From Hyphomicrobiaceae bacterium (lineage in GTDB: Bacteria; Pseudomonadota; Alphaproteobacteria; Rhizobiales; Hyphomicrobiaceae), in contig JANXWC010000251.1 in assembly GCA_025351355.1 (NCBI GenBank), forward strand, positions 1 to 64,000: a DNA stretch of 64,000 nucleotides. Reading direction: 5' to 3'. The notes beneath the pieces are model-generated. The model saw nothing but the letters and a program-made list of their open reading frames with translations. It made no database searches and was not told where the DNA came from. Positions 2,714-60,652 of the stretch are shown one piece after another (position 1 is the first letter of the stretch; every line of letters begins with the position of its first letter). The translations under genes and the position numbers were made by a program.

Positions 2714-3604
2714 CTATTCCCCGGGCAGTTTCAGCCGCGCATTCCGCGCATAGACTTTGGCAACCGCGGCGTCATCTTCAGCACCAAAACCCATGCCGGA
2801 AGCAGCCAGAAACTGTTGCAGTGCGGCTGCCGTCAGTGGCGCTGAAAAGCGCACGCCGCGCGCAATATCGCTGACGATCCCGAGATCCTTGACGAAAATC
2901 TCCACAGCCGATCGCGGCGTGTAATCACCGTCGACAACGTGCGGGCCCCGATTTTCCAGCATCCATGACGTCCCCGCACATTGCGGGATCACATCCATGA
3001 ACTGCCGGGGCTCGACACCTTGCGTCATTGCAAACGTGATCGCCTCGGCCATCGAAGCGATGTGCACACCCGCCAGCATCTGATTGACGATCTTCATCGC
3101 CGACCCCGCACCCGCGCGATCGCCAAGTCGAAAAATCTTCTGCGCCATCGAGGCGAGCACGGGCTCGGCCTTGCTCATCGCTTCCGGTGTTGCGCCAACC
3201 ATCATCGTCAACGCGCCATCGGCCGCCTTGGCCGCGCCGCCCGACATCGGCGCATCGACGTAGAGGACACCGAGTCCGGCAAGGCGCGCTTCCGTGCTGC
3301 GCGCGAAGTCAGGGGCGACGGTGGCGCAACCAATAACGACCGTACCCTTGGCGAGCGAAGGCGCGACGCCGTGCTCACCGAACAGCACACTTTCCATCTG
3401 CGCCGCGTTGACAACCACCGTGACAAGGACATCCAGCCGCTTGGCCACATCGGGCAACGCGCCTGTTTCACCGCCATCCGCGATAAAGTGCAGGACCGCC
3501 TTATCGTTGATGTCGAAACCGTGCACGACATGGCCGGCGCGCAGCAGACTGCGCCCCATGCCGCCCCCCATCGAGCCCAATCCGACTAATCCGACCCGCG
3601 CCAA
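2714..3604 (-). CDS. NAD(P)-dependent beta-hydroxyacid dehydrogenase, L-threonate dehydrogenase-like
   Basis: A member of the 3-hydroxyisobutyrate dehydrogenase / tartronate semialdehyde reductase family, 296 residues. The N-terminal Rossmann motif GLVGLGSMGGGMG (residues 5-17), the substrate-loop signature DAPMSGG near 117 and the catalytic lysine region GSAMKIVNQM (lysine near 170) are all visible. The sequence is closest in feel to L-threonate dehydrogenase (LtnD) and GarR-type enzymes, but no sugar-acid catabolic gene is adjacent, so the substrate is unproven. The start is a TTG at 3604 preceded by AAGAAGGGA at a good distance. It has its own 174-base upstream and downstream spacers. Confidence 0.88.
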   Translation of the reverse strand: MARVGLVGLGSMGGGMGRSLLRAGHVVHGFDINDKAVLHFIADGGETGALPDVAKRLDVLVTVVVNAAQMESVLFGEHGVAPSLAKGTVVIGCATVAPDFARSTEARLAGLGVLYVDAPMSGGAAKAADGALTMMVGATPEAMSKAEPVLASMAQKIFRLGDRAGAGSAMKIVNQMLAGVHIASMAEAITFAMTQGVEPRQFMDVIPQCAGTSWMLENRGPHVVDGDYTPRSAVEIFVKDLGIVSDIARGVRFSAPLTAAALQQFLAASGMGFGAEDDAAVAKVYARNARLKLPGE

Positions 3605-3659
3605 AGTTAAGTCCCTTCTTGCTTGCAGCGCCGATCCTCACCGCAATGGATCGACCCGA

Positions 3660-4490
3660 TCACTTCTGCTCAAGTTTCGCCTTCTCATACAGCGCGAGAA
3701 CTTCGGGGATGTGCTGCTTGATGGTCTGGATGCGTGTTTCGCCCGAGGGATGCGTCGACATCCACTGCGGCGGCGCCCCTTGCGACGCCTTGCTCATCTT
3801 CTGCCACAAGGTGATGCCGGCGCGCGGATCGTAGCCTGCACGGGCCGCCAGTTCCAAACCGATCAAGTCCGCCTGTGTTTCGTCACCACGGCTGAATTTA
3901 AGCGACGCGAGTGACCCCGCACCCGCGCCGACGAGATCACCAAGCTGGCCGAAAATCAGACCGGCAACCGCCCGCCCGGCGCCCAGCGCCATTTGCTTGC
4001 CGGCGCGAGCGCGGGCGTGCTCATAGAGTGCATGTCCGATCTCGTGCCCCATGACCAAGGCCGCTTCATCGTCGGTCAGCTGAAGTTTATTGAGAATGCC
4101 GGTGAACACGGCGATCTTGCCACCGGGCATGCAGAAGGCGTTGATCTGCGGACTATCGAGGACGTTGATTTCCCATTTCCAGTCCTTGGCACGCTCATTG
4201 AATTTTGTCGCATGCGGCAAAAGACGTTGAGCAATGGCCCGCATCCGTTGGGTCTGCGCATTGTCCGAAGGGAGCAGCGCACGTTTGGCAGAGGCTTGCC
4301 GTGTCATTTCGTCGTACTGAACGCCAGACTGCTGTTCGATAGTATCAGCTGAGACCGCAAACCTGAACACAGACTTGTTCTTGATGACAACGCCATCCGG
4401 CTCCTTGGCGATGGTGACGACGGAACCGCCAAGACACAACCCCAGCATAACCGCCGCGACCCATACGCCGCGACCGTGACTTCGAGCCAT
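3660..4490 (-). CDS. M48-family zinc metalloprotease, exported
   Basis: A 276-residue periplasmic or membrane-associated metalloprotease of the LoiP/BepA-like M48 group, usually involved in outer-membrane protein quality control. The N-terminal signal sequence (VWVAAVMLGLCLGG) lacks a proper lipobox. The zinc motif HEIGH is at residues 149-153, the third ligand is likely the Glu in the GDETQADLIGLELA segment near 207, and PGGKIAVFTG precedes the active site as in the family. The frame continues upstream to 4892, but the ATG at 4490 has GAGGGAG/AAGG in front and begins the signal peptide. It is divergent from the acyltransferase gene. Confidence 0.9.
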   Translation of the reverse strand: MARSHGRGVWVAAVMLGLCLGGSVVTIAKEPDGVVIKNKSVFRFAVSADTIEQQSGVQYDEMTRQASAKRALLPSDNAQTQRMRAIAQRLLPHATKFNERAKDWKWEINVLDSPQINAFCMPGGKIAVFTGILNKLQLTDDEAALVMGHEIGHALYEHARARAGKQMALGAGRAVAGLIFGQLGDLVGAGAGSLASLKFSRGDETQADLIGLELAARAGYDPRAGITLWQKMSKASQGAPPQWMSTHPSGETRIQTIKQHIPEVLALYEKAKLEQK

Positions 4491-4689
4491 TGCCTTCACT
4501 CCCTCAACATTTCGCCAATCCGTTTGCTTCCGGCGGCACCAGATCCCGCTCACTCCTAGCAAGAAAGAAGGCAATTGTGCGAGAGCCCGCGCGTCGATTT
4601 GCGAATAAGTTTGGCAGAAAGTCTGCAGACAAGAGGCTTTCCGTCGACGTACACTCTGACCGGTCAGCGGATCGAGGCAGCCCACCTTT

Positions 4690-5892
4690 ATGAGCGCAGC
4701 CAATACGCCTAAATCTTCCGCGCTCACCGCGCGTTGCCTGTCAGCCATTGGCGAGGTCCCGGCCGAAGCGTGGGATGCACTCGCCAATCCGGTCGCAACA
4801 ATTGCAAACCCATTTGTCAACCACGCTTTCCTCAAGTGTCTGGAAGACGCGGGGACTGTCGGCGGTCGTACCGGTTGGACGCCCCGCCACATCGTGCTTG
4901 AACGCGACGGTCGGTTGATCGGCGCGGCGCCTGCCTACGTGAAATCGAATAGTCAGGGAGAATACATCTTCGATCACGGCTGGGCGGATGCCTACGAGCG
5001 GGCCGGCGGCAGCTATTATCCGAAGCTGCAGATCGCGGTGCCGTTCACGCCGGTTCCAGGGCCGCGCCTACTCGTGGGAACCGGGGTTGACACCGACGAG
5101 TCGAGCCGACTGCTTGGTACGGCCTGCATCGAAGTAGCCCGGAGCCTGGGCGTGTCTTCGCTGCACGCGACTTACATCGACCGGCATGTATGGGACACTT
5201 TGGGCGGCGGTAGCAAGCCGCTGTTTCTGCAACGCACCGATCAGCAGTTTCATTGGCACAATGCCGGCTACCAGACCTTCGAAGACTTCCTGGCGGCGCT
5301 ATCGTCACGCAAACGCAAAACGATCCGCAAGGAGCGCGCGACAGCGGTCGAAGCCGGAATTACGGTCAAGTGCCTACGCGGGGCGGCCATAACAGAGAGC
5401 TACTGGGACGCCTTCTATCGCTTCTATCAAGATACAGGCAGCCGCAAATGGGGACGACCCTATCTTAATCGGCAATTCTTCTCGTTGCTTGGCGAGCGAA
5501 TGGGCGACAGTTGCCTGCTGATTGTTGCCGAACGCGGCGGCATGCCAATTGCAGGCGCACTTAATTTGATCGGCGGCGATTGCCTATATGGTCGCTATTG
5601 GGGGATGACTGAACACCACCCCTGCCTGCATTTTGAACTCTGTTACTACCAAGCGATGGACTGGGCGATTGCGCACAAGCTCCCGCGCGTCGAAGCCGGG
5701 GCGCAAGGCGAGCACAAGCTGGCGCGGGGCTACAATCCTGTTGCCACATACTCGTTGCACTGGATTGCCGACCCGAGCTTTCGGCGGGCCGTCGATCGGT
5801 ATCTGGGCGAAGAACGCGCCCACATGGCCGAACGACGCGAGATGCTGGCTGAATATGCCCCTTACAAGAGAGTTGTCGAAGAGCAGGATTGA
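4690..5892 (+). CDS. FemAB-like / COG3146 predicted N-acyltransferase
   Basis: A 400-residue protein of the FemAB-like (PF04339, formerly DUF482) family within the GNAT fold superfamily. Family signatures are the early NPFVNHAFL, the FDHGWADAYER stretch, SRKRKTIRKER and the C-terminal YSLHWIADPSFRRAV. Members transfer acyl or aminoacyl groups, but the substrate is not established. The ATG at 4690 is used; GAGG lies a little far upstream. It is divergent from the M48 protease and has no operon partner. It borders the exopolysaccharide locus but is widely conserved outside such loci, so I treat it as housekeeping. Confidence 0.87.
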   Translation: MSAANTPKSSALTARCLSAIGEVPAEAWDALANPVATIANPFVNHAFLKCLEDAGTVGGRTGWTPRHIVLERDGRLIGAAPAYVKSNSQGEYIFDHGWADAYERAGGSYYPKLQIAVPFTPVPGPRLLVGTGVDTDESSRLLGTACIEVARSLGVSSLHATYIDRHVWDTLGGGSKPLFLQRTDQQFHWHNAGYQTFEDFLAALSSRKRKTIRKERATAVEAGITVKCLRGAAITESYWDAFYRFYQDTGSRKWGRPYLNRQFFSLLGERMGDSCLLIVAERGGMPIAGALNLIGGDCLYGRYWGMTEHHPCLHFELCYYQAMDWAIAHKLPRVEAGAQGEHKLARGYNPVATYSLHWIADPSFRRAVDRYLGEERAHMAERREMLAEYAPYKRVVEEQD

Positions 5893-48856: not shown

Positions 48857-49732
48857 ATGGAAGTCCTGTGGTCGATGTTTACAGGTGTTGAAAAATTCCT
48901 GATCGCCCAGTTGCCTTGGGTGATCGGGCTCTCGGTACTATTTACCATATTGAGCCTGTTTAAGACTGCGGCGTGCAATCCCGGCCGGCCCTGGTGGCGG
49001 AGCCGCGACCTGCTAACCGATATTCAATATTTCTTCTTTCTGCCAATCATCACGCCCTACGCCCGCCTTATCGTCATGCTACTGGTGGCTGCCGGTATGC
49101 GCGGTGTGATGTCGGAAGACGACGTCACGGATTACATATCCAACGGCAAAGGACCGATCAGCCAGTTGCCGTACTGGGGTCAACTGGCGTTCTATGTGAT
49201 CGGAACAGACTTCCTGATGTATTGGGCGCATCGGGTGTTCCACGGTTCCACGCTGTGGCCGTTTCACGCCGTGCATCACTCTGCACTCGACGTCGACTGG
49301 ACCACCACTTATCGCGCTCATCCCGTCAACCAGATGCTGGGCAGCGGACTGGTTACGATCTTCATGATCATTATCGGCGTGCCACCGGCGATCATGATTG
49401 CGATGGTGCCATTCGACACTTTATCGGCAGCATTCGTGCACGCCAATCTCAACATTACCTTGGGCCCGCTGAAATACATCGTCGCCACGCCCGTGTTTCA
49501 TCGGTGGCACCACACCGGCGTCGACGAAGGTGGAGACTCCAACTTTGCGTCGACCTTCGCGATCTGGGACTACCTGTTCGGCACGTTCTATATGCCGGAG
49601 GGTGTGCTGCCACAGGAGTATGGCGTCGACGATCCGTTGTTCCCCACTACGTGGCATGGCCAGATGATCGTGCCTTTCAAGCAATTCCTCGAGCGTTTGC
49701 AACAAGCGCCGAAGAAGGGACCGGCACTCTAG
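48857..49732 (+). CDS. Sterol desaturase / fatty acid hydroxylase family membrane protein
   Basis: A 291-residue di-iron membrane oxygenase. About four hydrophobic segments surround the histidine boxes: HRVFH (about 125-129), FHAVHH (about 137-142), and FHRWHHTG (about 218-225), with further His in AFVHANLN. The family hydroxylates or desaturates sterols, fatty acids or carotenoids using O2. The substrate is not evident. It converges on the sulfatase-FGE operon, ending 14 bases from it, and is the only + strand gene at that edge of the catabolic island. Confidence 0.9.
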   Translation: MEVLWSMFTGVEKFLIAQLPWVIGLSVLFTILSLFKTAACNPGRPWWRSRDLLTDIQYFFFLPIITPYARLIVMLLVAAGMRGVMSEDDVTDYISNGKGPISQLPYWGQLAFYVIGTDFLMYWAHRVFHGSTLWPFHAVHHSALDVDWTTTYRAHPVNQMLGSGLVTIFMIIIGVPPAIMIAMVPFDTLSAAFVHANLNITLGPLKYIVATPVFHRWHHTGVDEGGDSNFASTFAIWDYLFGTFYMPEGVLPQEYGVDDPLFPTTWHGQMIVPFKQFLERLQQAPKKGPAL

Positions 49733-49745
49733 AGATCTATCAGTT

Positions 49746-50765
49746 TCAAGGCATGGGCGCCTCTAAAACGGTGCGAAAGCCGATGTGGGACGCGCCAACA
49801 GCACTCTCACCGGGCTGCCGTGCAGCCGGACGATAGCGTAGGCAGAAATTTGTAGCGCATAGGAATGATCCGCCCTTTATGACGCGGACGTTGTTTGCGT
49901 CTATGGCATTTATAGCCGATGCAGGGCGATGATGGTCCGAGGTCCAGCTGTCCCTAGTCCACTGCCAGACATTTCCAGCCATGTCGTAGAGACCGTACGC
50001 GTTGGGCGGGAAACAGCCGACCGGCGATGTTCCTTTAAAGCCATTGGTACCCAGATTCAGGACAGGAAACACGCCGCGCCAGTTGTTGGCCTTTGGTTCA
50101 TCAGCCGTATCGGGTTCGTTGCCCCAGGTATAAGACTGACCGCTGAACCCACCGCGAGCAGCGTATTCCCACTGCGCCTCGGTGGGCAATGCGCGATTGC
50201 TCCAGTGCGCATAGGCTTCCGCATCCTCGTAGGCAATTTGGACGACGGGATGCCAGCGGCGACGCGTGATGTCGCTACCGGGACCCTCAGGGTGACGCCA
50301 ATTCGCGCCTTCCACAAAGCGCCACCACCGGCTGGGATCGGCAAGTTCCACAGCATCGATCGGTGGTTTGAATACAAACGCGCCGGGCGGATTGCCGCCG
50401 TTCCATCGCTCTGCGACGGTCGCGTAGCCGGCTTCGCGGACGAAGCGTTCGAATTGGGCGTTGGTAACGTCGTGCGCGTCAATCCAGAAACTACCAACCG
50501 TCGCGTTGATTACCGGCGCCTCCTCGGCGCGAAAATCTTCAGACCCCATGGCAAAAATGCCGCCGGTAATCTTGACCATGCCCGACTGCGGACGGGAGGG
50601 CTTGTCGTCAACTTGGCTGCACACTTGCGGCAAAGATGTTTCGGCGACGCGCATCTGCCACGCCAACAAAACGGCGCTACCAGATAAAATCGCCAGGGCT
50701 GCGATCCCTGCTCGAACCGGGTATGCGTGGATTTGGGTGAGGTAGGTTCTCGATCGACAGAACAT
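49746..50765 (-). CDS. Formylglycine-generating enzyme (sulfatase maturation factor), membrane-anchored
   Basis: A 339-residue FGE-sulfatase family (SUMF1-like) enzyme that converts the active-site Cys of type I sulfatases to C-alpha-formylglycine. An N-terminal hydrophobic segment (IAALAILSGSAVLLAW, about 21-36) should anchor it in the membrane facing the periplasm. The catalytic core has MVKITGGIFAMGS, DAHDVTNAQFERFV, LPTEAQWEYAARGG, YDMAGNVWQWTRD and the two active-site cysteines with the same spacing as human FGE (GGSFLCATNFCLRYRPAAR). The ATG at 50765 shares its A with the stop of the sulfatase gene (TGATG), so translation is coupled to the substrate protein. Confidence 0.93.
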   Translation of the reverse strand: MFCRSRTYLTQIHAYPVRAGIAALAILSGSAVLLAWQMRVAETSLPQVCSQVDDKPSRPQSGMVKITGGIFAMGSEDFRAEEAPVINATVGSFWIDAHDVTNAQFERFVREAGYATVAERWNGGNPPGAFVFKPPIDAVELADPSRWWRFVEGANWRHPEGPGSDITRRRWHPVVQIAYEDAEAYAHWSNRALPTEAQWEYAARGGFSGQSYTWGNEPDTADEPKANNWRGVFPVLNLGTNGFKGTSPVGCFPPNAYGLYDMAGNVWQWTRDSWTSDHHRPASAINAIDANNVRVIKGGSFLCATNFCLRYRPAARQPGESAVGASHIGFRTVLEAPMP

Positions 50766-52429
50766 CAGTTAGCCCAATTGATATATTCGGCATTGGGTTG
50801 GGACGGAAAGCTCATTGGCTGGTCAATCATAATTGGCGCCTGCAGCAGGGATGGCCACGCGGGCTTTGACTGCTCTGCATCCAATTTTGTCAGATCAGCC
50901 ATCAATTCCTGGCGTTTGGCCACATTGGTCTCCGCCAGATTTGTCTGCTCTGTTGGATCAACAGCGAGGTCGAACAACCAAACCTTCTTCGGAACCTCTG
51001 AAACCTGGAGTTTCCAATTTCCGGCCAATAGCACTTTGTAGTCGCCACTCCGCCAATACAGTGACTTGTGGGGCGCTTCTGTTGCAACACCCGTGACGTG
51101 GCGTACGAGATCGACGCCGTCGAGAGTGCGATCCGTTGGCACTGCCGCTGAAGCGGTCGCGGCAGCAGTCGCAAAAATATCGACATGGGCTATGGGCTTG
51201 TCGAAAATAGTCTTGGGTGGAATGCGCGCCGGCCACTTCATGAAAAATGGGATATGTAGCCCGCCCTCGAAGAATGTCGCCTTCCAACCACGGAAGGGCT
51301 TGTTGATGTCGGGCAAGCCGATGTAATGCGCGCCGCCGTTGTCGCTGGTGAAGATGACGAGCGTATTGTCGTCGAGCCCATTGTCCTTCAGCGCGTCCAA
51401 TACGTAACCGATACTGCGGTCAAGCGAGCGGACCATCGCGGCATAGACGCGCAGACGATGGTCCTTGATATCGGAAAGGGTTTCATAGTCTGACTTGAGA
51501 GCTTGCAGCGGCGTGTGCACGGCGTTGTAGGCAAGGTACATGAAAAAGGGTCGGTTCTTATTGGCCACAATTGCACGGGCGGCCTCGTGGCCGAGATAAT
51601 CCGTCATGTACTCGCCTGGCGCAAATTGCTTGGATCCGTTGTAACGTATGCCGAACCCGAGGTTGGCCCACAAAAACTTGTCGATGGGATCGAAGTCCTG
51701 CATCGAGTTGACGACCTCCGCACTGCCTTTGGGCAAGAACATGGATGCACCCGAATAAAACGCCAGAGCCTCGTCGAAACCGCGCGCTTCAGGACGGGTG
51801 GCCGGCGTGCCACCCAGATGCCACTTGCCCAGCATGATCGTGTGATAGGCTTTCTGCTTCATGACCTCGCCGATCATGATTTCGGAGGTGGGAACAGTGA
51901 GTAGATCAATGTGATCCGGTATCTGATCTTCCAATTCCGAATGATACATCATCGGATGCCCGTTGGTTGCGGGAAAGGTGCTGATCAGGCGTGAGAACGC
52001 TTTTGGCGCTGGCGTGAATTCAAAACCGAAGCGCGTCGCATAGCGGCCAGTCATAATCGCGGCCCGCGATGGTGCACACGTTGCGTTGCCCGCATACGCC
52101 TGCATGAATGTTGCGCCGTCCAGGCCGATGGAATTGATACGCGGCGTCGGCACGGCACCGTTGGCAACGCCGCCGCGATTGAATGAAAGATCGTTCCAAC
52201 CGAGATCGTCGGCAAGAATTACGATGACATTCGGCGGACGCGATGCACCAGCCGACGGCGGCGTTGCCGGCCCTGCTTGCCAAGACACCGGCTGCGTCGG
52301 TCCGATGGGATCGCGAAACGATGCCACCAGCCCTGGCAGATAATACCAATAGCGCTGCCAGCCTAGCCACCCCGCCGCACCGAGGACGGCAAGCACAACA
52401 AGAACAATGCGACCCGACGACAACTTCAT
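50765..52429 (-). CDS. Type I (formylglycine-dependent) sulfatase, arylsulfatase-like
   Basis: A 554-residue sulfatase with an N-terminal membrane anchor (IVLVVLAVLGAAGWLGW, about 7-23). The metal-binding start VIVILADDLGWNDLSF (about 67-82), the formylglycine motif CAPSRAAIMTGR (Cys about 118), KWHLGG, SLDRSIGYVLDAL and FTSDNGGAHY are all present. It hydrolyses sulfate esters, releasing alcohol or phenol. The Cys-type active site needs FGE, which is encoded by the next gene. ATG 52429 is preferred over the upstream in-frame start at 52468 because it begins the signal anchor. The substrate is unknown; adjacent alcohol- and ketone-handling enzymes hint at an alkyl or steroid-like sulfate. Confidence 0.94.
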   Translation of the reverse strand: MKLSSGRIVLVVLAVLGAAGWLGWQRYWYYLPGLVASFRDPIGPTQPVSWQAGPATPPSAGASRPPNVIVILADDLGWNDLSFNRGGVANGAVPTPRINSIGLDGATFMQAYAGNATCAPSRAAIMTGRYATRFGFEFTPAPKAFSRLISTFPATNGHPMMYHSELEDQIPDHIDLLTVPTSEIMIGEVMKQKAYHTIMLGKWHLGGTPATRPEARGFDEALAFYSGASMFLPKGSAEVVNSMQDFDPIDKFLWANLGFGIRYNGSKQFAPGEYMTDYLGHEAARAIVANKNRPFFMYLAYNAVHTPLQALKSDYETLSDIKDHRLRVYAAMVRSLDRSIGYVLDALKDNGLDDNTLVIFTSDNGGAHYIGLPDINKPFRGWKATFFEGGLHIPFFMKWPARIPPKTIFDKPIAHVDIFATAAATASAAVPTDRTLDGVDLVRHVTGVATEAPHKSLYWRSGDYKVLLAGNWKLQVSEVPKKVWLFDLAVDPTEQTNLAETNVAKRQELMADLTKLDAEQSKPAWPSLLQAPIMIDQPMSFPSQPNAEYINWAN

Positions 52430-52457
52430 GTTCTCGATCCCTTTTTTCACACAAGCC

Positions 52458-53582
52458 TCATGAACCAATGACAGCTATCGGCTTTTCCAGCGCCACCTGC
52501 AGGCCGACGTGACGGAGGCGTGGAATTTGCAGGTCGAGCACGCGCTCGACACCCGCAGTTGCCGCCCAGGCGCGAACCTTGGCCTGATCGCCCGCGCTCA
52601 TAGCCTTGAAGACATCCAGCAATCGTTGGACTTTCCAAGCAGCAAAGATCAGTGCGGCCCGGCTGAACCTGCCGTTGCCCATCGGAAACGTGATGTCGTT
52701 GCCGCCGCGCGGCAGCGGCGTTCCTTGCGGCACCGTTGGGGCAAGGCGCTGCAATTCGAGCACTACCGCCTCTATCATCGGGAGGAATTCGCGCGAGACC
52801 GAATTAAACACCGGTGTGAGCGTCGCCGGAATTTCATCGTCAGCCACGAGGGAGGCCGCAGCTTCGCCGTCAGGCGGAGCTGCCATGCGGTCGATCCATG
52901 CACGCAAGTTCTTGCGCGGGTCCACGAGTTCTCGCTTTGGCCAGGGATCGCGACCGAGATGACCGTACATGGTGCCTACCACGCCGAAATCACCGAGCGT
53001 GGGTCTGTCGCCGAACAGGAAGCGATGTCGGGCGAAGTGCGCGTCGAGATGATCGAGCATGATGCGTGTCCATGACTCCATCATCGCGAACTGCTCGGGC
53101 CTGATACCGACGCGCGGGACGTAGCCGCGCAATTTCGAAGCAACGAAGCCAACGGCCATGTTTTGGAGAAAACGCGGAAAACCTGGCAATAAGGCGCGCC
53201 CGGCATCGCGCTCGAATAGGGCGAAATTTTCCGGATAGCTCCAGCGCGTGTGCATGGCGATGGGGATCCACCATTCGTCACCCCAAACTTCGAGCAAGGT
53301 CGAGGCGAACCGCTGCACGGGTGACTGTGGGATAACGGGCCGCGCCGGGAAACGAGCTTCAAGCTGATCGATAATGACGCTGCTGTCCTGCAGCCATTGA
53401 CCTTCCGGTGTTCGCACTACCGGCATGACGGCTGCGCCGGTATGCCGCTTGATCGGCACTGCGAGCGTGTAAAGACTGACGTCTTGGTCGATAAACGGAA
53501 TATGTTTGTACCGTAGATAGCAGCGTACCTTTCCCGCATAAAACGAAAGATGCCACCCGTAGAGTATGAAAGGTTTGCTCAT
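52458..53582 (-). CDS. Glutathione S-transferase-like protein, long form
   Basis: A 374-residue protein, longer than usual GSTs (about 200-230). The N-terminal thioredoxin-like domain (FILYGWHLSFYAGKVRCYLRY, VMPVVRTPEGQWLQDSSVIID) is followed by an all-helical C-terminal domain with the conserved FLFGDRPTLGDFGVVGTMYGHL (about 189-210). An extra C-terminal region of about 130 residues includes LPRGGNDITFPMGNGRFSRAALIFAAWKVQRLLD. Long GST-like proteins of this type are common in sphingomonads and Rhizobiales near aromatic or steroid genes. Role unproven. It overlaps the hydrolase gene by ATGA. Confidence 0.85.
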   Translation of the reverse strand: MSKPFILYGWHLSFYAGKVRCYLRYKHIPFIDQDVSLYTLAVPIKRHTGAAVMPVVRTPEGQWLQDSSVIIDQLEARFPARPVIPQSPVQRFASTLLEVWGDEWWIPIAMHTRWSYPENFALFERDAGRALLPGFPRFLQNMAVGFVASKLRGYVPRVGIRPEQFAMMESWTRIMLDHLDAHFARHRFLFGDRPTLGDFGVVGTMYGHLGRDPWPKRELVDPRKNLRAWIDRMAAPPDGEAAASLVADDEIPATLTPVFNSVSREFLPMIEAVVLELQRLAPTVPQGTPLPRGGNDITFPMGNGRFSRAALIFAAWKVQRLLDVFKAMSAGDQAKVRAWAATAGVERVLDLQIPRLRHVGLQVALEKPIAVIGS

Positions 53583-54502
53583 AGGGTTGGCACGCGCGGC
53601 GCTACGCGTTGGACAAACTGCTGCACCTGGCTCAAGCTCTGCCGTCCTTCGGGCAGGATGCGGGCGAAGATTGGCCAGACATGAGGGACGCCCTGGACTA
53701 AATGCAGTTCCACCGGCACATTCGCGGCCAGTGCCTTCGACGCAAGGCGCGTCGAGTCATCGCGCAGCACTTCATCCGAACTGGCGAAGATCAACAACGG
53801 CGGCAGACCCTTCAGGTCCGCATACAGCGGAGATGCGCGTGGGTCGAGCGGATCTGCGTCGCCCAGATAGATCCTCGCGCCGTCGCGGATGCCTTGACCT
53901 GTGAACATGGCACAGCGGCGGGTATTAGCATCGATGGAGGCGCCGGTGCCGGCGAGATCCGTCCAAGGAGAAAACAGCACCAATGCCGACGGCATCGATA
54001 AGCCCTGGTCTCGCATGGCGAGCGCGGTAGCCAACGCCAATCCACCACCTGCTGAATCTCCCGCGATGATGAGCCGGCGCCCCGGTTGCCGACTGGCGAG
54101 GACCCGAACTGCGGCGAGTGCATCGTCGAGCGCCGCCGGGAATCGGTGTTCCGGCGCCAATCGGTAGTCGAGTGCGTAGACCGGGGCATCGCAGTGCTTG
54201 GCCATTCCGATCGTGAGTTGCCGATGTGTCTGTGGCGACCCAAAAAAATACCCTCCGCCGTGCAAATAAAGCACCATGAGATCGCTGCGGAGCGGATTGC
54301 CGCTCTCGCGATCGACAGCTTCGAAAGTCAATCCGCTGGCGCTCAGCGGCGCTACCTTCCATCCCGCCGGAACCTGGAGCACCCGCGGCCGAGGTGTCCC
54401 GATGCTGCCGCGCGTCTTGGCAATGTCAATGCCGTGGCGCCCCGCCCGCTTCATCGTCAGGCGCAACATCGTGCAGAGCAGAAACGACTGCCAACTCGCC
54501 AT
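53579..54502 (-). CDS. HSL-family alpha/beta hydrolase (esterase)
   Basis: A 307-residue serine esterase of the hormone-sensitive-lipase family. It has the oxyanion motif HGGGYFFGS (about 80-88), YRLAPEHRFPAALDD, the nucleophile elbow GDSAGGG (about 147-153), DPRASPLYADLKGLPPLLI, the acid residue in ASSDEVLRDD and the final histidine in GVPHVWP. ATG 54502 starts the usual N-terminal helix. The frame continues upstream to 54688 without features. In this operon it could cleave the ester product of the divergent Baeyer-Villiger monooxygenase. Confidence 0.92.
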   Translation of the reverse strand: MASWQSFLLCTMLRLTMKRAGRHGIDIAKTRGSIGTPRPRVLQVPAGWKVAPLSASGLTFEAVDRESGNPLRSDLMVLYLHGGGYFFGSPQTHRQLTIGMAKHCDAPVYALDYRLAPEHRFPAALDDALAAVRVLASRQPGRRLIIAGDSAGGGLALATALAMRDQGLSMPSALVLFSPWTDLAGTGASIDANTRRCAMFTGQGIRDGARIYLGDADPLDPRASPLYADLKGLPPLLIFASSDEVLRDDSTRLASKALAANVPVELHLVQGVPHVWPIFARILPEGRQSLSQVQQFVQRVAPRVPTL

Positions 54503-54506
54503 TTGC

Positions 54507-55055
54507 TTAGCTTCCACGTTTGATCGCGTTGCATTGAATACTTTTCTGCGCGGCGAGAGCCTCGTCCATGTTCGTCTTATCGAGCACCAGCAGGCGTGCC
54601 AACATGACACCCTTGTTGTGGGGTGTGACAACAAACCTTGCTGACGGAAAGCGCGCCGCTGCATCACCGCTGTCACCTGCAGAGCCAAGCATTAGATCCG
54701 CAGTGCTGACTTTCAGATCGTTGGCATTAAACGTGAAAAAATTGTCGGTGTTGGTGTCGAACAGAGACAACGACCAATATGTGGTAGGTGGCATTATCGA
54801 CAAACGCACAGGTCCGGCGCTGACGTCGAACACGCAAACGCCATAGAGGAGGTCAGGACTGGGCTTGACGACGGTACGCGACAAGTCTGTCGGCAACGGC
54901 TGGGTAATGACACGATTGACGCCATATTGTGCCGCGACGCGCGACATGAATACTCGCATGATGACGACCGGCACCAGCCAGACTACGGCAACGTGAATTA
55001 CGGCTGCGAGCCCTATCGTGACGACGAACCATCGCAGCCAAACGCGCGACTTCAT
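54507..55055 (-). CDS. DUF1254-domain membrane-anchored protein
   Basis: A 182-residue protein with an N-terminal membrane helix (WFVVTIGLAAVIHVAVVWLVP, about 9-29) and a DUF1254-like periplasmic domain: SPDLLYGVCVFDVSAGPVRL, TTYWSLSLFDTNTDNFFTFN and VTPHNKGVMLARLLV. DUF1254 and DUF1214 usually form one polypeptide; here they are two adjacent genes. The ATG at 55055 has GGGAG seven bases upstream and overlaps the stop of the DUF1214 gene by ATGA. The biochemical role of these domains is unknown. Confidence 0.86.
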   Translation of the reverse strand: MKSRVWLRWFVVTIGLAAVIHVAVVWLVPVVIMRVFMSRVAAQYGVNRVITQPLPTDLSRTVVKPSPDLLYGVCVFDVSAGPVRLSIMPPTTYWSLSLFDTNTDNFFTFNANDLKVSTADLMLGSAGDSGDAAARFPSARFVVTPHNKGVMLARLLVLDKTNMDEALAAQKSIQCNAIKRGS

Positions 55056-55636
55056 GGACAACTCCCGGCGAGCTTGATCGACGGCAACTCAATGGAAGAG
55101 AGTTGTCGCAGAATCTCGGGGGATGCGTTGTATAGCCGGAGCGTCAAGATAAGCCCCCTGCCGCCGGTTCCCGTGGGCAGCCAATTTCCCGTTTGCTCGG
55201 CGGACGACGCGACAATGCGATAGCGCCCATCTGTGCCGGTCGGCACATTGCCCATGTTGAATGAAAACCGATTTGCCGGATTTGGAATGAGAAAATTATC
55301 GTCAGCGTAGGCAGTGATGCTCCACCACTGCGCGACGAACGGCTTGCCGTCGATGACATAGGTGCAATGGGTCCGCAACGGCCGGCCGGCGTTGTCGACG
55401 TTGGCTGAAAAATAGATCGCCTCGGAAGGATTTAGCGCAAACAAGCCGGTCAGCGCGACGCGAGCGCGCGTATACGGATCCGCACTCGTACTTCCAACGG
55501 CCAAACTCGTGCGCCATGAGCCGTTCGCAATATCGGTCTGCAGCGGGTAGTGGAGCAGCACGGCCCACGCCGATCCGATCGCGATGGCGGCAGCGACGAC
55601 CAATACCCCAATTGCTTTGGCAACCCATGTCATCAT
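55052..55636 (-). CDS. DUF1214-domain membrane-anchored protein
   Basis: A 194-residue protein: an N-terminal membrane helix (IGVLVVAAAIAIGSAWAVLL, about 9-28), then the DUF1214 domain with NGSWRTSLAVGSTSADPYTRARVALTGL in its first half and WWSITAYADDNFLIPNPANRFSF in the second (about 105-127). Its C-terminal half ends in GGRGLILTLRLYN. It is the partner of the DUF1254 gene that follows with an ATGA overlap. The start ATG 55636 (or 55633) lies one base past the stop of the SDR gene, so all three are coupled. Function unknown. Confidence 0.86.
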   Translation of the reverse strand: MMTWVAKAIGVLVVAAAIAIGSAWAVLLHYPLQTDIANGSWRTSLAVGSTSADPYTRARVALTGLFALNPSEAIYFSANVDNAGRPLRTHCTYVIDGKPFVAQWWSITAYADDNFLIPNPANRFSFNMGNVPTGTDGRYRIVASSAEQTGNWLPTGTGGRGLILTLRLYNASPEILRQLSSIELPSIKLAGSCP

Positions 55637-55637
55637 C

Positions 55638-56498
55638 TCATGAGCCCGCCTTGGCGCCGAGCCGGGAGGTGCGGCCGGACGCGCGCCTGTTCAGTCTTTG
55701 CAGCCATTTGAAATGTTGCACCGGCAAATAGCGCGTCAAGCGATCAACGAGGCGGGCATCGCTGCCGATAAGTATGCGCGGCGAATTTCGGAGTATACCA
55801 TCGACGATGCATTGCGCGGCCTGTTCCGGCGTCGAACGCGCAACGGTGTCGAAATTGCCGGCCAAGTCAGCCTTCTGGTTGGAGAGATTAGCTGTCGTCC
55901 GCGCATTGCGAACAATATTCGTCTTGATGCCGCCGGGGTGCACAAGGGAGACGTGCACTGGCCAATTGCGCTCTTCGCACTCATGCCGAAGCGATTCGCT
56001 GTAACCGCGTACCGCAAACTTGCTTGACGCATAAGCGGTCTGCCCGGGCGGGCCAAAAAAACCGAATACGGAAGACAGATTGACGATGTGCGCTTCGCGC
56101 TGTCGACTGAGATGCGGCAGAAAACTTTGGCAGCCGTAAACAACGCCCCAGAAATTGATCGACATGACCCATTCGAAGTCGGCTAGTTTGATATCATCAT
56201 GGTCGCCGAGCAGCGCAACACCGGCGTTATTGACGACAATATTCAGGCCGGGATGGGCGGCTATGGCCGCCGCAGCAAAGCGGGCGACGTCGGCGGCGTT
56301 TGAGACGTCCAACTTGTAAGTGGTGCACTTGACCTTTGATTTAGCGTTAATGATGCCTGCTAAACTCGCCAGTCCCGTTTCGTCCCGATCGGCCAGCGCG
56401 AGATCGCAGCCTAAGTCCGCCAAGCGCAACGCAAGCGCGCGTCCGATGCCACTGGCCGCTCCCGTCACAGCAGCAGCACTTCCCAAGATTTTAGTCAC
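55638..56498 (-). CDS. Short-chain dehydrogenase/reductase, classical
   Basis: A 286-residue NAD(P)-dependent oxidoreductase. It has AAVTGAASGIGRALALRLA (about 9-27), the NNAGVAL strand, SSVFGFFGPPGQTAYASSKFAV with the catalytic Ser and Tyr-x3-Lys (about 142-163) and VHPGGIKTNI. An acidic ADRDE at the end of the second strand favours NAD(H). GTG 56498 with GGAGA upstream is the start; the frame continues to 56573 without family features. Likely interconverts an alcohol and a ketone, fitting the adjacent dehalogenase (alcohol-forming) and monooxygenase (ketone-using). Confidence 0.92.
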   Translation of the reverse strand: MTKILGSAAAVTGAASGIGRALALRLADLGCDLALADRDETGLASLAGIINAKSKVKCTTYKLDVSNAADVARFAAAAIAAHPGLNIVVNNAGVALLGDHDDIKLADFEWVMSINFWGVVYGCQSFLPHLSRQREAHIVNLSSVFGFFGPPGQTAYASSKFAVRGYSESLRHECEERNWPVHVSLVHPGGIKTNIVRNARTTANLSNQKADLAGNFDTVARSTPEQAAQCIVDGILRNSPRILIGSDARLVDRLTRYLPVQHFKWLQRLNRRASGRTSRLGAKAGS

Positions 56499-56529
56499 GC
56501 GGCATTCTCCGTCGCAAAAATACTTCGCG

Positions 56530-57453
56530 TCATAGTTCGGTGCCCGCAGCGGCTTGCCGCACCATGTTGTCAATCAGGGCAACTAATGCAGCTGGTTGGT
56601 CCTCTTGCAGAAAATGCCCGGCCTTGCGGATGGTGGCATGCGGCTGACCGCGCGTGCCGGGAATACGTGCCTGAAAGATTTTGTCGCCGCCGCGCGTGAT
56701 CGGATCGCGATCGCTGAAGGCCGTCAGGAACGGCTTGTTGAAGCCGGCCAGAATTTCCCACGCGGCCTTGCACTCGGGGACGGATGCATGCGCATCGGTG
56801 ATCGGCACCAGGGCCGGAAAGATACGCGCGCCCGCCTTGTAGCGTTCATCGGGAAATGGAGCGTCGTAAGCCCGCTTTTCACCTGCCGTCAGGCCGCGCA
56901 CAGTCCCTTTGCTGACCAGCCAACCGATTGGCAGACGGGGCACGTATTGGCTGAACGCCAACCACAGTTTGAATGGCAAGGGAATGGCCCCGCCGCCGAT
57001 CGGCAACCCAGTATTGGCAGCAATTACGCCCGCAAACCGTTCCGGAAACCGGGCGACAAGCCGCAAACCGATCAAGCCACCCCAGTCCTGGCAAAACAGC
57101 GTTATATCTTTGAGATCGAGCTTAGTGAGCCATTCGCTCATCCAGTCGACGTGCCGCTCAAAGGTGTAGTCGGAGCGCGATGCCGGCTTGTCGGAGCGGC
57201 CAAAACCAATGAGATCCGGAGCCACGACACGATGGCCTCGTTCGGCTAGCGGTTGGATCATCCGGCGATAGAGATAGCTCCAACTGGGCTCGCCGTGCAG
57301 CAACAAAACCGGTGCGGCGGTGGCGGGCCCTTCATCGAGATAATGGAGCCGCAGTTGAATTGCCTGACGCCCCGTCACCTGAACATAATGCGGCGCGAAG
57401 GGAAAATCGCTAAGATCGGCAAAGCGCGCGTCTGGCGTCCGCAGCACCTCCAT
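56530..57453 (-). CDS. Haloalkane dehalogenase (HLD-I subfamily)
   Basis: Hydrolyses carbon-halogen bonds to alcohol and halide. The 307-residue alpha/beta hydrolase starts with the subfamily-typical [19 protein letters not shown]. It has the oxyanion/halide motif [11 protein letters not shown] (about 53-63), the nucleophile aspartate followed by the halide-binding Trp in CQDWGG (about 122-127), and the histidine in KAGHFLQED near the C-terminus. ATG 57453 is chosen because GGGGGG lies six bases upstream; 57459 would leave no room. Epoxide hydrolase activity is the main alternative, but the Glu of HGEP and the Trp after the nucleophile favour a dehalogenase. First gene of the - strand operon. 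Confidence 0.88.
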
Positions 57454-57488
57454 ACTCATCCCCCCAAGCGATACGGAACGTGCTGACA

Positions 57489-57506
57489 GACTTATTGACA
57501 TAAGTC
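57489..57506. promoter_or_regulatory. 18-bp palindrome in the divergent promoter region (candidate TetR operator)
   Basis: GACTTAT-TGAC-ATAAGTC is a perfect 7-bp inverted repeat with a 4-base spacer, in the 108-base gap between the dehalogenase and monooxygenase genes. It overlaps a possible -35 word TTGACA (57495-57500) and is followed by a second short repeat TGACA-N7-TGTCA (57496-57512). The nearby TetR-type regulator (59116-59739) is the obvious candidate ligand. Confidence 0.6.
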
Positions 57507-57561
57507 GTGTCATATCTTCTGATGCCCGTCAACTCGCGGAAAACCGTCGAAGGAAAAGCCC

Positions 57562-59079
57562 ATGGTCTTTACTACCGCATCTCAACAACATGTCGATGTG
57601 CTCATCGTTGGCGCGGGATTGTCGGGTATTGGCGCCGGCTATTATCTAAAGACGCGCTGCCCGAACAAGACGTACGTCATCCTCGAAGGACGCGAGCGGA
57701 TCGGTGGCACGTGGGATCTGTTTCGCTATCCCGGCGTGCGTTCCGATTCCGATATGTTCACCCTCGGATATTCATTCCGACCATGGACGGATCCGAAGGC
57801 CATTGCCGACGGACCCTCTATTCTTAAGTACATCAACGACACCGCAACCGCTGAAGGTATCGACAAAAAGATTCAGTTCCAGACGCGGGTAAAACGTGCG
57901 GCGTGGTCCAGCACAGAAGGAAAGTGGAGCGTCGAGGTGGAGCGCGGCGCCGACCGCGAGGCCGCCACCTACACTTGCAATTTCCTCTTCATGTGCACCG
58001 GTTACTACAATTATCAAGCCGGCTACACTCCCGCTTTTCCTGGACGCGAAGGTTTCAAGGGCCGCGTTGCGCACCCTCAGAAATGGACCGAGGATATCGA
58101 CTATACCGGCAAGCGCGTCGTGGTCATCGGCAGCGGCGCCACCGCTGTCACGCTGGTGCCGGCATTGGCCGAGAAGTCGGCGCACGTCACCATGCTGCAA
58201 CGCTCACCGACCTACGTTGTATCACGACCGTCGTCAGACGTGCGCGCCGACCAGTTGCGCCGTCGCTTGCCGGCCAAGTTGGCGCACAGCATCGTGCGTT
58301 GGAAGAATGTGTTGTGGGGCATGTACGTCTACCGCATCAGCAAGAAGCGACCGGAAGGCATGAAACAGTTTATCCTCAAGGGCGTCCAAGACGCCTTGGG
58401 CCCGGATTACGACGTCAAGAAGCACTTCACACCAAACTACAATCCATGGGATCAGCGTCTGTGTTTGGTGCCGGACGGCGATCTCTTCAAAGCCATCAAA
58501 AGCGGACGTGCGTCAGTCGTTACCGATGAAATCGAAACATTCACGGAAACAGGCATCAAGCTGAAATCCGGGCAGGAGATACCGGCCGATCTCGTGGTCA
58601 CGGCGACCGGGCTAGACCTGTTGGTGCTTGGTGATGTCGCGCTCAGTGTCGATGGCAAAGCCGTCGATCCCGCAAAAGCGATGACCTATAAAGGCATGAT
58701 GTACAGCGACGTGCCCAACATGGCCGTAGCGACAGGCTATACGAATGCATCGTGGACACTGAAGTGCGATCTGACATGCGAGTATGTGTGCCGTCTTCTG
58801 CAATACATGGAGCAGAACGGCTACCAGCAGTGCACGCCGCGTCAGACAGATCCGACAGTGAAGGAGGAGCCGTGGGTTGATTTCTCGTCAGGCTATATTC
58901 TGCGCTCACGCGACAAGTTCCCCAAACAAGGCACCAAGTTGCCATGGAAATTGCACCAGAACTACGCGCGGGACGTCATGTCGCTCCGCTTCGGCTCGCT
59001 CAATGATGGCGTCATCGAGTACAAAAAGCCGATGCGTTCTGCAGAAGCTGTCAGAGCCGGCGAAAAAGAATCTGCCTAG
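57562..59079 (+). CDS. Baeyer-Villiger-type flavin monooxygenase
   Basis: A 505-residue class B flavoprotein monooxygenase. It has the FAD motif VLIVGAGLSGIGAGYYL (about 13-29), RIGGTWDLFRYPGVRSDSD, the Baeyer-Villiger fingerprint FKGRVAHPQKW (FxGxxxHxxxW, about 168-178), the NADPH motif VVVIGSGATAVTLVPAL (about 189-205) and the ATGLDLL segment. It resembles EthA-like enzymes that insert oxygen next to a ketone, or sulfoxidise. AAGGA precedes ATG 57562. It is divergent from the dehalogenase operon and co-directional with the TetR gene 36 bases downstream. Confidence 0.92.
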   Translation: MVFTTASQQHVDVLIVGAGLSGIGAGYYLKTRCPNKTYVILEGRERIGGTWDLFRYPGVRSDSDMFTLGYSFRPWTDPKAIADGPSILKYINDTATAEGIDKKIQFQTRVKRAAWSSTEGKWSVEVERGADREAATYTCNFLFMCTGYYNYQAGYTPAFPGREGFKGRVAHPQKWTEDIDYTGKRVVVIGSGATAVTLVPALAEKSAHVTMLQRSPTYVVSRPSSDVRADQLRRRLPAKLAHSIVRWKNVLWGMYVYRISKKRPEGMKQFILKGVQDALGPDYDVKKHFTPNYNPWDQRLCLVPDGDLFKAIKSGRASVVTDEIETFTETGIKLKSGQEIPADLVVTATGLDLLVLGDVALSVDGKAVDPAKAMTYKGMMYSDVPNMAVATGYTNASWTLKCDLTCEYVCRLLQYMEQNGYQQCTPRQTDPTVKEEPWVDFSSGYILRSRDKFPKQGTKLPWKLHQNYARDVMSLRFGSLNDGVIEYKKPMRSAEAVRAGEKESA

Positions 59080-59115
59080 AACCGTTCAACGCGTAGCATA
59101 GGCATTCGATACTCG

Positions 59116-59739
59116 ATGACACGAACACGCTCCGCTTCTGCCGCGAACACGAGTGTGGTTGCGCGACCGCCGGCCGACGGTCGGCGACGCCGATCGCACG
59201 AGAGCCAGCAGCGCATTGTCGATGCCATGCTGGCGCTGATCGGCGAAGGGAACCATTCGCCGAGCGCCGATCAGGTATCTGAACGCGCCGGCGTCGGCCT
59301 CAGATCGGTATTTCGACATTTCAACGACATGGAGAGCCTGCACCAGTCGATCTCGAATATACTGTCGGCTCGACTGGAAACGGCGGCGCGCCTGCCGTTC
59401 TTAGCGTCGGACTGGCAGGGACAGGTGCTTGAACTGATCGAGCGCCGTGCAAAGGTTTACGAGGCCGCCGGAGCCTTTCTGCTGGCCGGCCAAGTTCATC
59501 GCTACGACTCAAAAGTATTGCGAGCCAACCACAGAAAATTTGTCGGCATTCTCAGGCAGCTGCTGCTCGATCGACTGGCGACAGCGCCCGGGCTTGAACA
59601 GTCGGCGATCGAGGCGATCGATCTGCTTTTGAGTTTCGAAGCCTGGCAGCGGCTCCGCAGTGACCAACGTTTGAGCGTGGCGCAGGCAAAAGACGTGTTG
59701 CGACAAACGATGACCGCGCTACTGAAATTGCGTTCATAA
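59116..59739 (+). CDS. TetR-family transcriptional regulator
   Basis: A 207-residue regulator with an N-terminal basic extension (GRRRRSHESQQRIVDAMLALIGE). The HTH follows at about 46-75: PSADQVSERAGVGLRSVFRHF. The remaining helical domain (about 80-205) is the ligand-binding part. It follows the monooxygenase by 36 bases, so it likely autoregulates and controls the divergent promoters through the palindrome at 57489-57506. It ends 25 bases from the convergent dioxygenase gene, across a spacer with A and T tracts that may terminate both. Confidence 0.9.
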   Translation: MTRTRSASAANTSVVARPPADGRRRRSHESQQRIVDAMLALIGEGNHSPSADQVSERAGVGLRSVFRHFNDMESLHQSISNILSARLETAARLPFLASDWQGQVLELIERRAKVYEAAGAFLLAGQVHRYDSKVLRANHRKFVGILRQLLLDRLATAPGLEQSAIEAIDLLLSFEAWQRLRSDQRLSVAQAKDVLRQTMTALLKLRS

Positions 59740-59764: not shown

Positions 59765-60652
59765 TTATTCCGCCGCTTCTTGGGCAACTGTGGGCGCGTC
59801 GCCCGCGACGGTTGTGCGTCGCACATCGCGCGGCTGCGTCTCGTCGTAGCGGCGGCCGCGATGCATGGTTTGCCGGTTGTCCCACATGACGAGGTCGTGC
59901 AACTGCCATTTGTGTACATGAACAAAGCGTGACGCCGTGGCATGCTCGTTGAGATCGCGCAGCAAAATGCGCGCTTCCGGTGTGGGGCGGCCGACGATCG
60001 TGCCGGCGTGCGACGAGAGGTAAAGTGATTTCCGGCTGGTGACGGGATGAACGCGGACCAGTTGCTGGCGGACCGGTTTGAACAGCTGCTTTTCCTCATC
60101 GGTGTACTCGGTGAAGCCCAGCGAACCCCGCGAATACATCAGCGAGTGCTCGCAAATCAGATCCGCCACCTCGGCCTTGCTCTCGTCGTCGAGCGCATCG
60201 TAGGCCGCCCGCATGTCGGCAAATTCGGTGTTGCCGCCCTTTCGATTGACTGTTCGCGCGGAGAGCAGCGAGTACTTGGCGGGAATGGCGCGGAATGAAC
60301 TATCGGAATGCCACAAAAGATTACCCAGGTTGAACAGCCGTTGGCGGCTGTCACGGGCCAAAGGCTTGCCATCCTTGCCGAGGTTGGAAACGTCATTCAT
60401 GCCCGCCGGCAGACGCATATCTGATGGCTTGGTGACGTTGCCGCCACGCGCATTTTCCATGGCACCGAAGTTGCGGCTGAAGACGATCTGCTGTTCGTCG
60501 GTCAGGGGTTGGTTGCGAAAAACCAGCACGGCAAAGGTGTCCATGCCGGCCTCCAGCGCCGCAACATCGGTCGGCGAAATCTCCTTGGTGAGATCCAGGC
60601 CGGCGACTTCCGCCACGAAATCAGGACCAATACGGCGAATGGTGAGGCCCAT
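59765..60652 (-). CDS. TauD/TfdA-family Fe(II)/2-oxoglutarate dioxygenase, TfdA-like
   Basis: A 295-residue non-haem iron dioxygenase. Ligands are the His and Asp of LLWHSDSSF (about 113-119) and the distal His of TMHRGRRYD (about 263-270). The arginine pair in the following DVRRTTVAGD should bind 2-oxoglutarate. The run LVFRNQPL, GGNTEFADMRAAYDAL and HDLVMWDNR matches TfdA (2,4-dichlorophenoxyacetate dioxygenase) better than TauD as I recall those sequences. TfdA-alpha versions are known from Bradyrhizobium. Substrate not proven. It is convergent with the TetR gene and followed on its upstream side by the HdeD-like gene, 15 bases away in the same direction. Confidence 0.9.
   Translation of the reverse strand: MGLTIRRIGPDFVAEVAGLDLTKEISPTDVAALEAGMDTFAVLVFRNQPLTDEQQIVFSRNFGAMENARGGNVTKPSDMRLPAGMNDVSNLGKDGKPLARDSRQRLFNLGNLLWHSDSSFRAIPAKYSLLSARTVNRKGGNTEFADMRAAYDALDDESKAEVADLICEHSLMYSRGSLGFTEYTDEEKQLFKPVRQQLVRVHPVTSRKSLYLSSHAGTIVGRPTPEARILLRDLNEHATASRFVHVHKWQLHDLVMWDNRQTMHRGRRYDETQPRDVRRTTVAGDAPTVAQEAAE

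Follow-up and report, generated by a model that had tools for sequence, protein, structure and literature searches.

Two separately conserved gene modules in a putative composite TetR-controlled catabolic operon of a Hyphomicrobiaceae bacterium

The window, by which we mean the whole analysed stretch of 64,000 nucleotides from a draft assembly of a Hyphomicrobiaceae bacterium (266 contigs, 97.98% complete, contamination 0), contains a compact block of ten genes, all present as intact open frames. Eight of them occupy the minus strand from 49746 to 57453, and in order of transcription encode a haloalkane dehalogenase (HLD) of the HLD-I type (56530–57453), a short-chain dehydrogenase/reductase (SDR, 55638–56498), a DUF1214 protein (55052–55633), a DUF1254 protein (54507–55055), an HSL-type esterase (53579–54502), a long GST-like protein of 374 aa (52458–53582), a type I (formylglycine) sulfatase with a predicted membrane anchor (50765–52429), and an FGE (49746–50765). 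Opposite this set, at 57562–59739 on the plus strand, lie genes for a type I Baeyer-Villiger-like flavin monooxygenase (57562–59079) and a TetR-family regulator (59116–59739). An operator-like inverted repeat, TTGACA-N7-TGTCA (57495–57512, plus strand), lies in the intergenic region from which the dehalogenase and monooxygenase genes diverge. An earlier note on this DNA had described the eight minus-strand genes, the divergent monooxygenase and the TetR gene following it, and all of these were recovered from open frames, Pfam and NCBIfam, the TetR match being a weak one.

Gene starts were revised from aligned relatives and ribosome-site context, which placed them at ATG 57453 for the dehalogenase, GTG 56498 for the SDR, ATG 55055 for DUF1254, ATG 54502 for the esterase, and ATG 52429 for the sulfatase. 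With these starts, the spacing is 31 bp from dehalogenase to SDR, 1–4 bp from SDR to DUF1214, 4 bp from DUF1254 to esterase, and 28 bp from GST to sulfatase, while DUF1214 and DUF1254 overlap at ATGA, the esterase and GST frames overlap, and the sulfatase and FGE share 1 bp. The largest gap among the eight genes is therefore 31 bp, in agreement with the earlier statement that they overlap or lie within about 35 bases of each other. A convergent fatty-acid-hydroxylase-type gene (48857–49732) has its stop 13 bp beyond the 3′ end of the operon, and 25 bp separate the end of the TetR gene from a convergent TauD-type gene. The latter, a TauD-family dioxygenase gene outside the operon (59765–60652, minus strand), encodes a protein 71% identical to PDB 5bke, which is annotated as an alpha-ketoglutarate-dependent 2,4-D dioxygenase. 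In a genome of the same genus (G002, L199 4604–6103), a different monooxygenase, 46% identical, was observed about 2 kb from the ortholog of the fatty-acid-hydroxylase-type gene. GC content is alike in the ten genes (55–63%), so that composition gives no mark of recent arrivals.

The dehalogenase scored 464.5 bits against NCBIfam PRK00870, for which the curated cut-off is 265, and also matched Abhydrolase_1. It is 63.5% identical to DccA, a haloalkane dehalogenase of Caulobacter vibrioides (PDB 5esr; PMC10619424), and has the same catalytic pentad. The HLD-I pentad is complete, comprising the Asp nucleophile, two halide-binding Trp, the Asp acid and the His base (CQDWGG, FKLW, FSDRDP, AGHF). 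The sulfatase domain (PF00884, 5e-49) contains the formylglycine motif CAPSR, kept as C[AS]PSR in 16 relatives, and its closest solved relative is an S1 carrageenan sulfatase. The FGE (PF03781, 2.1e-75) matched solved FGEs at about 250 bits and has the active-site cysteine pair (FLCATNFC, aligned with a solved FGE), which is kept in 10 relatives from the gene clusters described below as module B. The GST-like protein combines GST_N_3 and GST_C_2 domains.

Among the remaining proteins, the SDR (adh_short, 3.1e-48) has the motifs TGxxxGIG, NNAG and YxxxK, and the esterase (Abhydrolase_3, 1.9e-58) has HGGG and GDSAG. The DUF1254 protein (PF06863, 3.3e-17; alignment A1) and the DUF1214 protein (PF06742, 8.3e-23; alignment A4) are recognised by Pfam, and the DUF1214 profile aligns with the C-terminal part of VPA0106 (PDB 3u07). 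The monooxygenase (FMO-like, 1e-18), whose closest solved relatives are OTEMO and PAMO, has two Rossmann GxGxx[GA] motifs at residues 17 and 190 and the BVMO1 pattern [GA]GxWx4[FY]P[GM]x3D at residue 48. The strict BVMO2 pattern FxGx3Hx3W[PD], a motif that can degenerate (PMC9044951), does not match, since the sequence at residue 165 is FKGRVAHPQKWT, in which Thr replaces Pro/Asp. As this end varies between WT and WP among close monooxygenase relatives of the same gene cluster, we call the enzyme BVMO-like, and Baeyer-Villiger chemistry is likely. The regulator scored 19.9 bits against TetR_N, under the cut-off of 24. Hydrophobic N-terminal segments were found in four proteins, the sulfatase, the FGE (KD19 1.92 at residue 17), DUF1254 (a helix, KD19 2.62) and DUF1214 (a helix), and because of these segments the four are probably membrane-tethered or exported.

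In order to see which of these genes belong together, we compared their neighbourhoods in other genomes, and the ten genes resolved into two sets. The one that we call module A consists of the TetR and monooxygenase genes and, divergent from them, the genes for the SDR, DUF1214, DUF1254 and the HSL esterase. It is complete and in the same order in a genome of the same genus (G004, L042) and in a Rhodospirillales MAG (L120), so that the BVMO, SDR and HSL esterase share one locus in these two as in the window. Partial versions were found at four loci: L117, in a second Rhodospirillales MAG, has no SDR and carries the TetR gene at the opposite end, L055 and L056, in Acetobacteraceae MAGs, have the esterase divergent from the monooxygenase, and the fourth is L043. 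The SDR, esterase, DUF1214 and DUF1254 genes occur together on a short contig of genome G003. SDR orthologs are 54–67% identical in L042, L043 and L120, and the esterase is 55–68% identical across six related loci. None of these loci, complete or partial, has a dehalogenase, GST, sulfatase or FGE gene. Module A was absent from the other 76 of the 80 closest named monooxygenase loci, mostly from Bradyrhizobium, and is thus rare. As a negative control, 20 loci of the class with esterase homologs of 38–55% identity contained no BVMO, TetR or operator, and esterase homologs were dropped as markers of the route. DUF1214 and DUF1254 were likewise set aside as markers: 92 of 100 relatives encode a DUF1214 protein, mostly with an adjoining DUF1254 gene in the loci read (e.g. 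L046 8060–9774), and further pairs in the class have no monooxygenase. The two apparently make up a common gene pair, of which the operon's is a diverged copy. Four MAGs (L117 444–3940, L120 3726–7107, L055, L056) have oligopeptide-type ABC transporter genes next to module A, possibly for uptake of its substrate; a hydantoinase/oxoprolinase A and B pair is also present in L056.

The other set, module B, consists of the HLD-I dehalogenase, sulfatase, FGE and GST genes with a related TetR gene, and is found again in further families of the class. No close homolog of the window sulfatase turned up in 100 relatives, among them four of the same genus, and its orthologs in other families of the class are 44–60% identical. 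Around 15 such sulfatase loci, a dehalogenase (52–64% identity) was present in 5, an FGE in 10 and a TetR of the window subfamily in 10. The neighbourhood was then viewed from the dehalogenase, a close ortholog of which is present in 83 of the 348 genomes of the order of G793. Forty dehalogenase loci were ranked by identity, one per genome, with neighbours ignored and with two loci that had been found through the sulfatase left out. Within about 9.5–10 kb of the dehalogenase this sulfatase was present in 22/40, the TetR in 28/40 and an FGE in 17/40, along with an MBL-fold protein in 23/40, DUF1330 in 23/40, and some GST and DsbA-like genes. In a genome of roughly 4 Mb with one sulfatase, chance would place that sulfatase so near any particular gene about 0.5% of the time. 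Among the 40 loci, the five most distant had zero module B partners, and ranking by identity with the window dehalogenase leaves distant orthologs under-represented in the set. Conserved-frame clustering in 33 loci returned an identical partner list with no further widespread partner that could be identified, and the active sites are conserved in the module B dehalogenases, sulfatases and FGEs checked.

The window operon, which contains dehalogenase, sulfatase and FGE in one locus, as we take a module B cassette to do, resembles these clusters in the families of its dehalogenase, sulfatase, FGE, GST and TetR, and several of them have the same operator-like site. L219 and L258 are examples of module B loci with the same order, sulfatase then FGE, and a GST ortholog (47%) adjoins sulfatase and FGE in L221. 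They differ in usually having the additional MBL-fold and DUF1330 genes, sometimes with a DsbA-like isomerase and a second sulfatase, and in having none of the window's SDR, esterase and monooxygenase. MBL-fold and DUF1330 genes are absent from the window operon and its neighbours; an MBL homolog (45%) is located elsewhere in the same genome (C116). Near the module B cluster of L219, a single protein (3049–5370) combines DinB_2, FGE-sulfatase-type and histidine-specific methyltransferase domains, and looks like a fused ergothioneine synthase.

Comparison across genomes thus shows the hybrid to be made of two separately conserved modules, a putatively ancestral module A and a module B cassette, and the grouping is far beyond chance because each of the two subsets recurs on its own elsewhere. 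A single conserved eight-gene operon is ruled out, as none of the relatives examined has all eight genes, and the hybrid of both modules was found in no other genome examined. This divides the claim of the earlier note, which had seen a coherent oxidative degradation route and regarded scattering of its genes in relatives as evidence against it. The SDR, monooxygenase and HSL esterase form a conserved unit, whereas the eight-gene set falls apart into modules A and B, each of which holds together. Where that note had the dehalogenase or the sulfatase releasing an alcohol, we would now write "and", because these two genes repeatedly adjoin in other genomes. The reaction order it gave is chemically sensible.

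Phylogenetic trees associate the two parts of the operon with different sources. The window TetR groups with the module A TetR of G004 (support 99/98), in a family shared with the module B regulators, while the window dehalogenase groups with module B dehalogenases (support 97/93), apart from the second haloalkane dehalogenase of its own genome (G000:C224:39975-40817, L238). The latter is 46% identical to that of the operon and, being common to three genomes of the same genus, was probably inherited vertically. The window dehalogenase gene separates the SDR from the divergent promoter region, a position with no dehalogenase in G004 and L120, and the GST, sulfatase and FGE genes are placed 3′ of the esterase. 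This would be consistent with an acquired module B cassette having been put under the promoter of module A, with the dehalogenase gene entering immediately downstream of the shared divergent promoter and the other three genes being added at the 3′ end. No empty insertion site was seen between the fatty-acid-hydroxylase and PBP genes, and module A is located elsewhere in G004.

The divergent regions of module A share a site of the form CTATTGACA-N7-TGTCA followed by a GTCAA half-site, which in the window reads TTATTGACA, with its core at 57495–57512. TTGACA-N7-TGTCA occurs exactly in the divergent regions of L042, L120 and L056, and as a TGCCA variant in L055 and L117. The same core adjoins the TetR or dehalogenase gene in several module B loci. 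In total, exact matches numbered 3 in module A loci, against 0 after shuffling, and 11 in module B loci, against a shuffle mean of 0.08. The other exact matches in the window's own genome had no module A or B homologs nearby in the loci examined and several lie inside reading frames, and we rejected them as a wider regulon. TetR may bind TTGACA-N7-TGTCA, with repression being lifted when a pathway compound is present. TTGACA could also be the −35 box of the monooxygenase promoter; a strict promoter scan found no good −10, which makes that element uncertain. That related TetR proteins read one common operator-like site would explain most simply how the modules could merge.

Parts of module A are familiar from described systems, since BVMOs occur together with an SDR and an HSL esterase in the cyclohexanone chn clusters and in mymA. 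We know of no DUF1214/DUF1254, dehalogenase, sulfatase or FGE in the pdc, mymA, EthA or chn systems. In the pdc cluster of Caenibius tardaugens (PMC12239570) a type I BVMO adjoins a TetR gene, as in the window, but that cluster has a luciferase-like monooxygenase and a LuxR regulator, neither of which appears in the window gene list. The mymA operon and EthA of M. tuberculosis are further published BVMO systems (PMC9044951). The Deinococcus radiodurans plasmid pMP1 encodes an HSL-type hydrolase fused to an EthA-like monooxygenase (WP_010884002, L185 4933–7434), which links the esterase and monooxygenase functions. In this protein an HSL-type hydrolase forms the N-terminal part, and the C-terminal part matches the window monooxygenase with 53% identity; unlike in the window, it is a single polypeptide with no other partner genes nearby. 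The fusion is annotated merely as an alpha/beta hydrolase. In a literature search with incomplete coverage, no paper was found that describes DUF1254 with DUF1214, or a cluster of HLD and sulfatase.

Taking these data together, we favour, with somewhat better than even confidence, a composite TetR-controlled catabolic operon in which a module B cassette was joined to module A to give one pathway from desulfation to cleavage. While the enzyme families are evident from profiles and motifs, each reaction and the order of the steps are read from those families. The FGE would activate the membrane-anchored sulfatase, which would take off a sulfate ester, and the dehalogenase would hydrolytically swap a halogen for a hydroxyl. 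The GST may deal with electrophiles, for example epoxides from halohydrins formed when a sulfate beside a halogen is removed. The resulting secondary alcohol would be oxidised to a ketone by the SDR, the monooxygenase would insert oxygen to yield an ester or lactone, and the esterase would cleave the ester to an acid and a shorter alcohol, thus splitting the carbon skeleton, with DUF1214 and DUF1254 as putative exported or membrane-tethered helpers. Because the sulfatase and FGE appear to be exported and the other enzymes look cytosolic, the step order is a guess.

That separation of compartments also fits a different reading, in which the four module B genes serve sulfur scavenging and general detoxification and lie in the operon for shared induction rather than as consecutive steps. 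Sulfatase and FGE, probably periplasmic by their hydrophobic N-termini and so apart from the cytosolic enzymes, would then supply sulfate, and the dehalogenase and GST would defuse reactive compounds; the occurrence of module B without any monooxygenase or esterase agrees with this. However, the adjacency of dehalogenase and sulfatase in many genomes is hard to explain without a shared substrate, and the regulator belongs to the module's own TetR family rather than to the sulfur regulators. We regard scavenging as rather unlikely, if worth keeping in view.

It is also possible, but unlikely, that the dehalogenase-like protein acts on another electrophile, such as an epoxide, lactone or ester, and that the substrate is a terpenoid, steroid or phenol derivative that is sulfated without being halogenated. 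In favour are the versatility of the alpha/beta hydrolase fold, an epoxide hydrolase (EHN domain) that adjoins the sulfatase in one module B relative, and published BVMO clusters that act on steroids (PMC12239570). Against this, the nucleophile, both halide-binding Trp, the acid and the His are kept across the module B dehalogenases checked, and the window protein is 63.5% identical to DccA, which has been described as a dehalogenase (PMC10619424). Finally, the hybrid is known from one draft genome only, and its genes could have come to lie side by side by chance or through assembly without functioning as a single operon. We consider this very improbable, since starts and stops interlock, with overlaps of 1–4 bp at esterase/GST and sulfatase/FGE, GC content is similar in all ten genes, and every frame is intact.

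Returning to the composite catabolic operon, the association of dehalogenase and sulfatase genes suggests that the substrate is a natural food compound bearing both a sulfate ester and an alkyl halide. Chlorosulfolipids, a natural class whose first description came from Ochromonas danica, a freshwater chrysophyte, and which has now been detected with up to 11 chlorines in Pacific coastal water (PMC13413282), are a candidate, though a long shot. The same literature search of incomplete coverage found no paper on bacterial degradation of chlorosulfolipids. Two other functions were considered and set aside. Polysaccharide desulfation, raised by the match to the carrageenan sulfatase structure, is disfavoured, as the conserved module B neighbours that were identified are small-molecule enzymes with no glycosidase among them, and an anti-phage function was dropped after PADLOC gave no matches for four of the proteins.

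More generally, one might imagine a widespread TetR-controlled module of Alphaproteobacteria (HLD, sulfatase, FGE, MBL, DUF1330, GST) for sulfated and halogenated natural molecules, which the window operon extends with a chain-cleaving Baeyer-Villiger module via a shared operator; we hold this generalisation to be quite doubtful. That such a module, acting for example on algal chlorosulfolipids, would be one so far undescribed is an equally speculative proposition. If true, the HLD-I dehalogenases of the module would gain a natural substrate. The wide occurrence of dehalogenases in organisms that have no record of breaking down synthetic organohalogens suggests that they act on natural halogenated compounds (PMC6299022), and the conserved neighbourhood of dehalogenase and sulfatase narrows the search for natural substrates to compounds that also bear a sulfate ester, which is testable. 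The operon itself would illustrate clearly how two catabolic modules that have related regulators and operator-like sites can fuse into a longer one.
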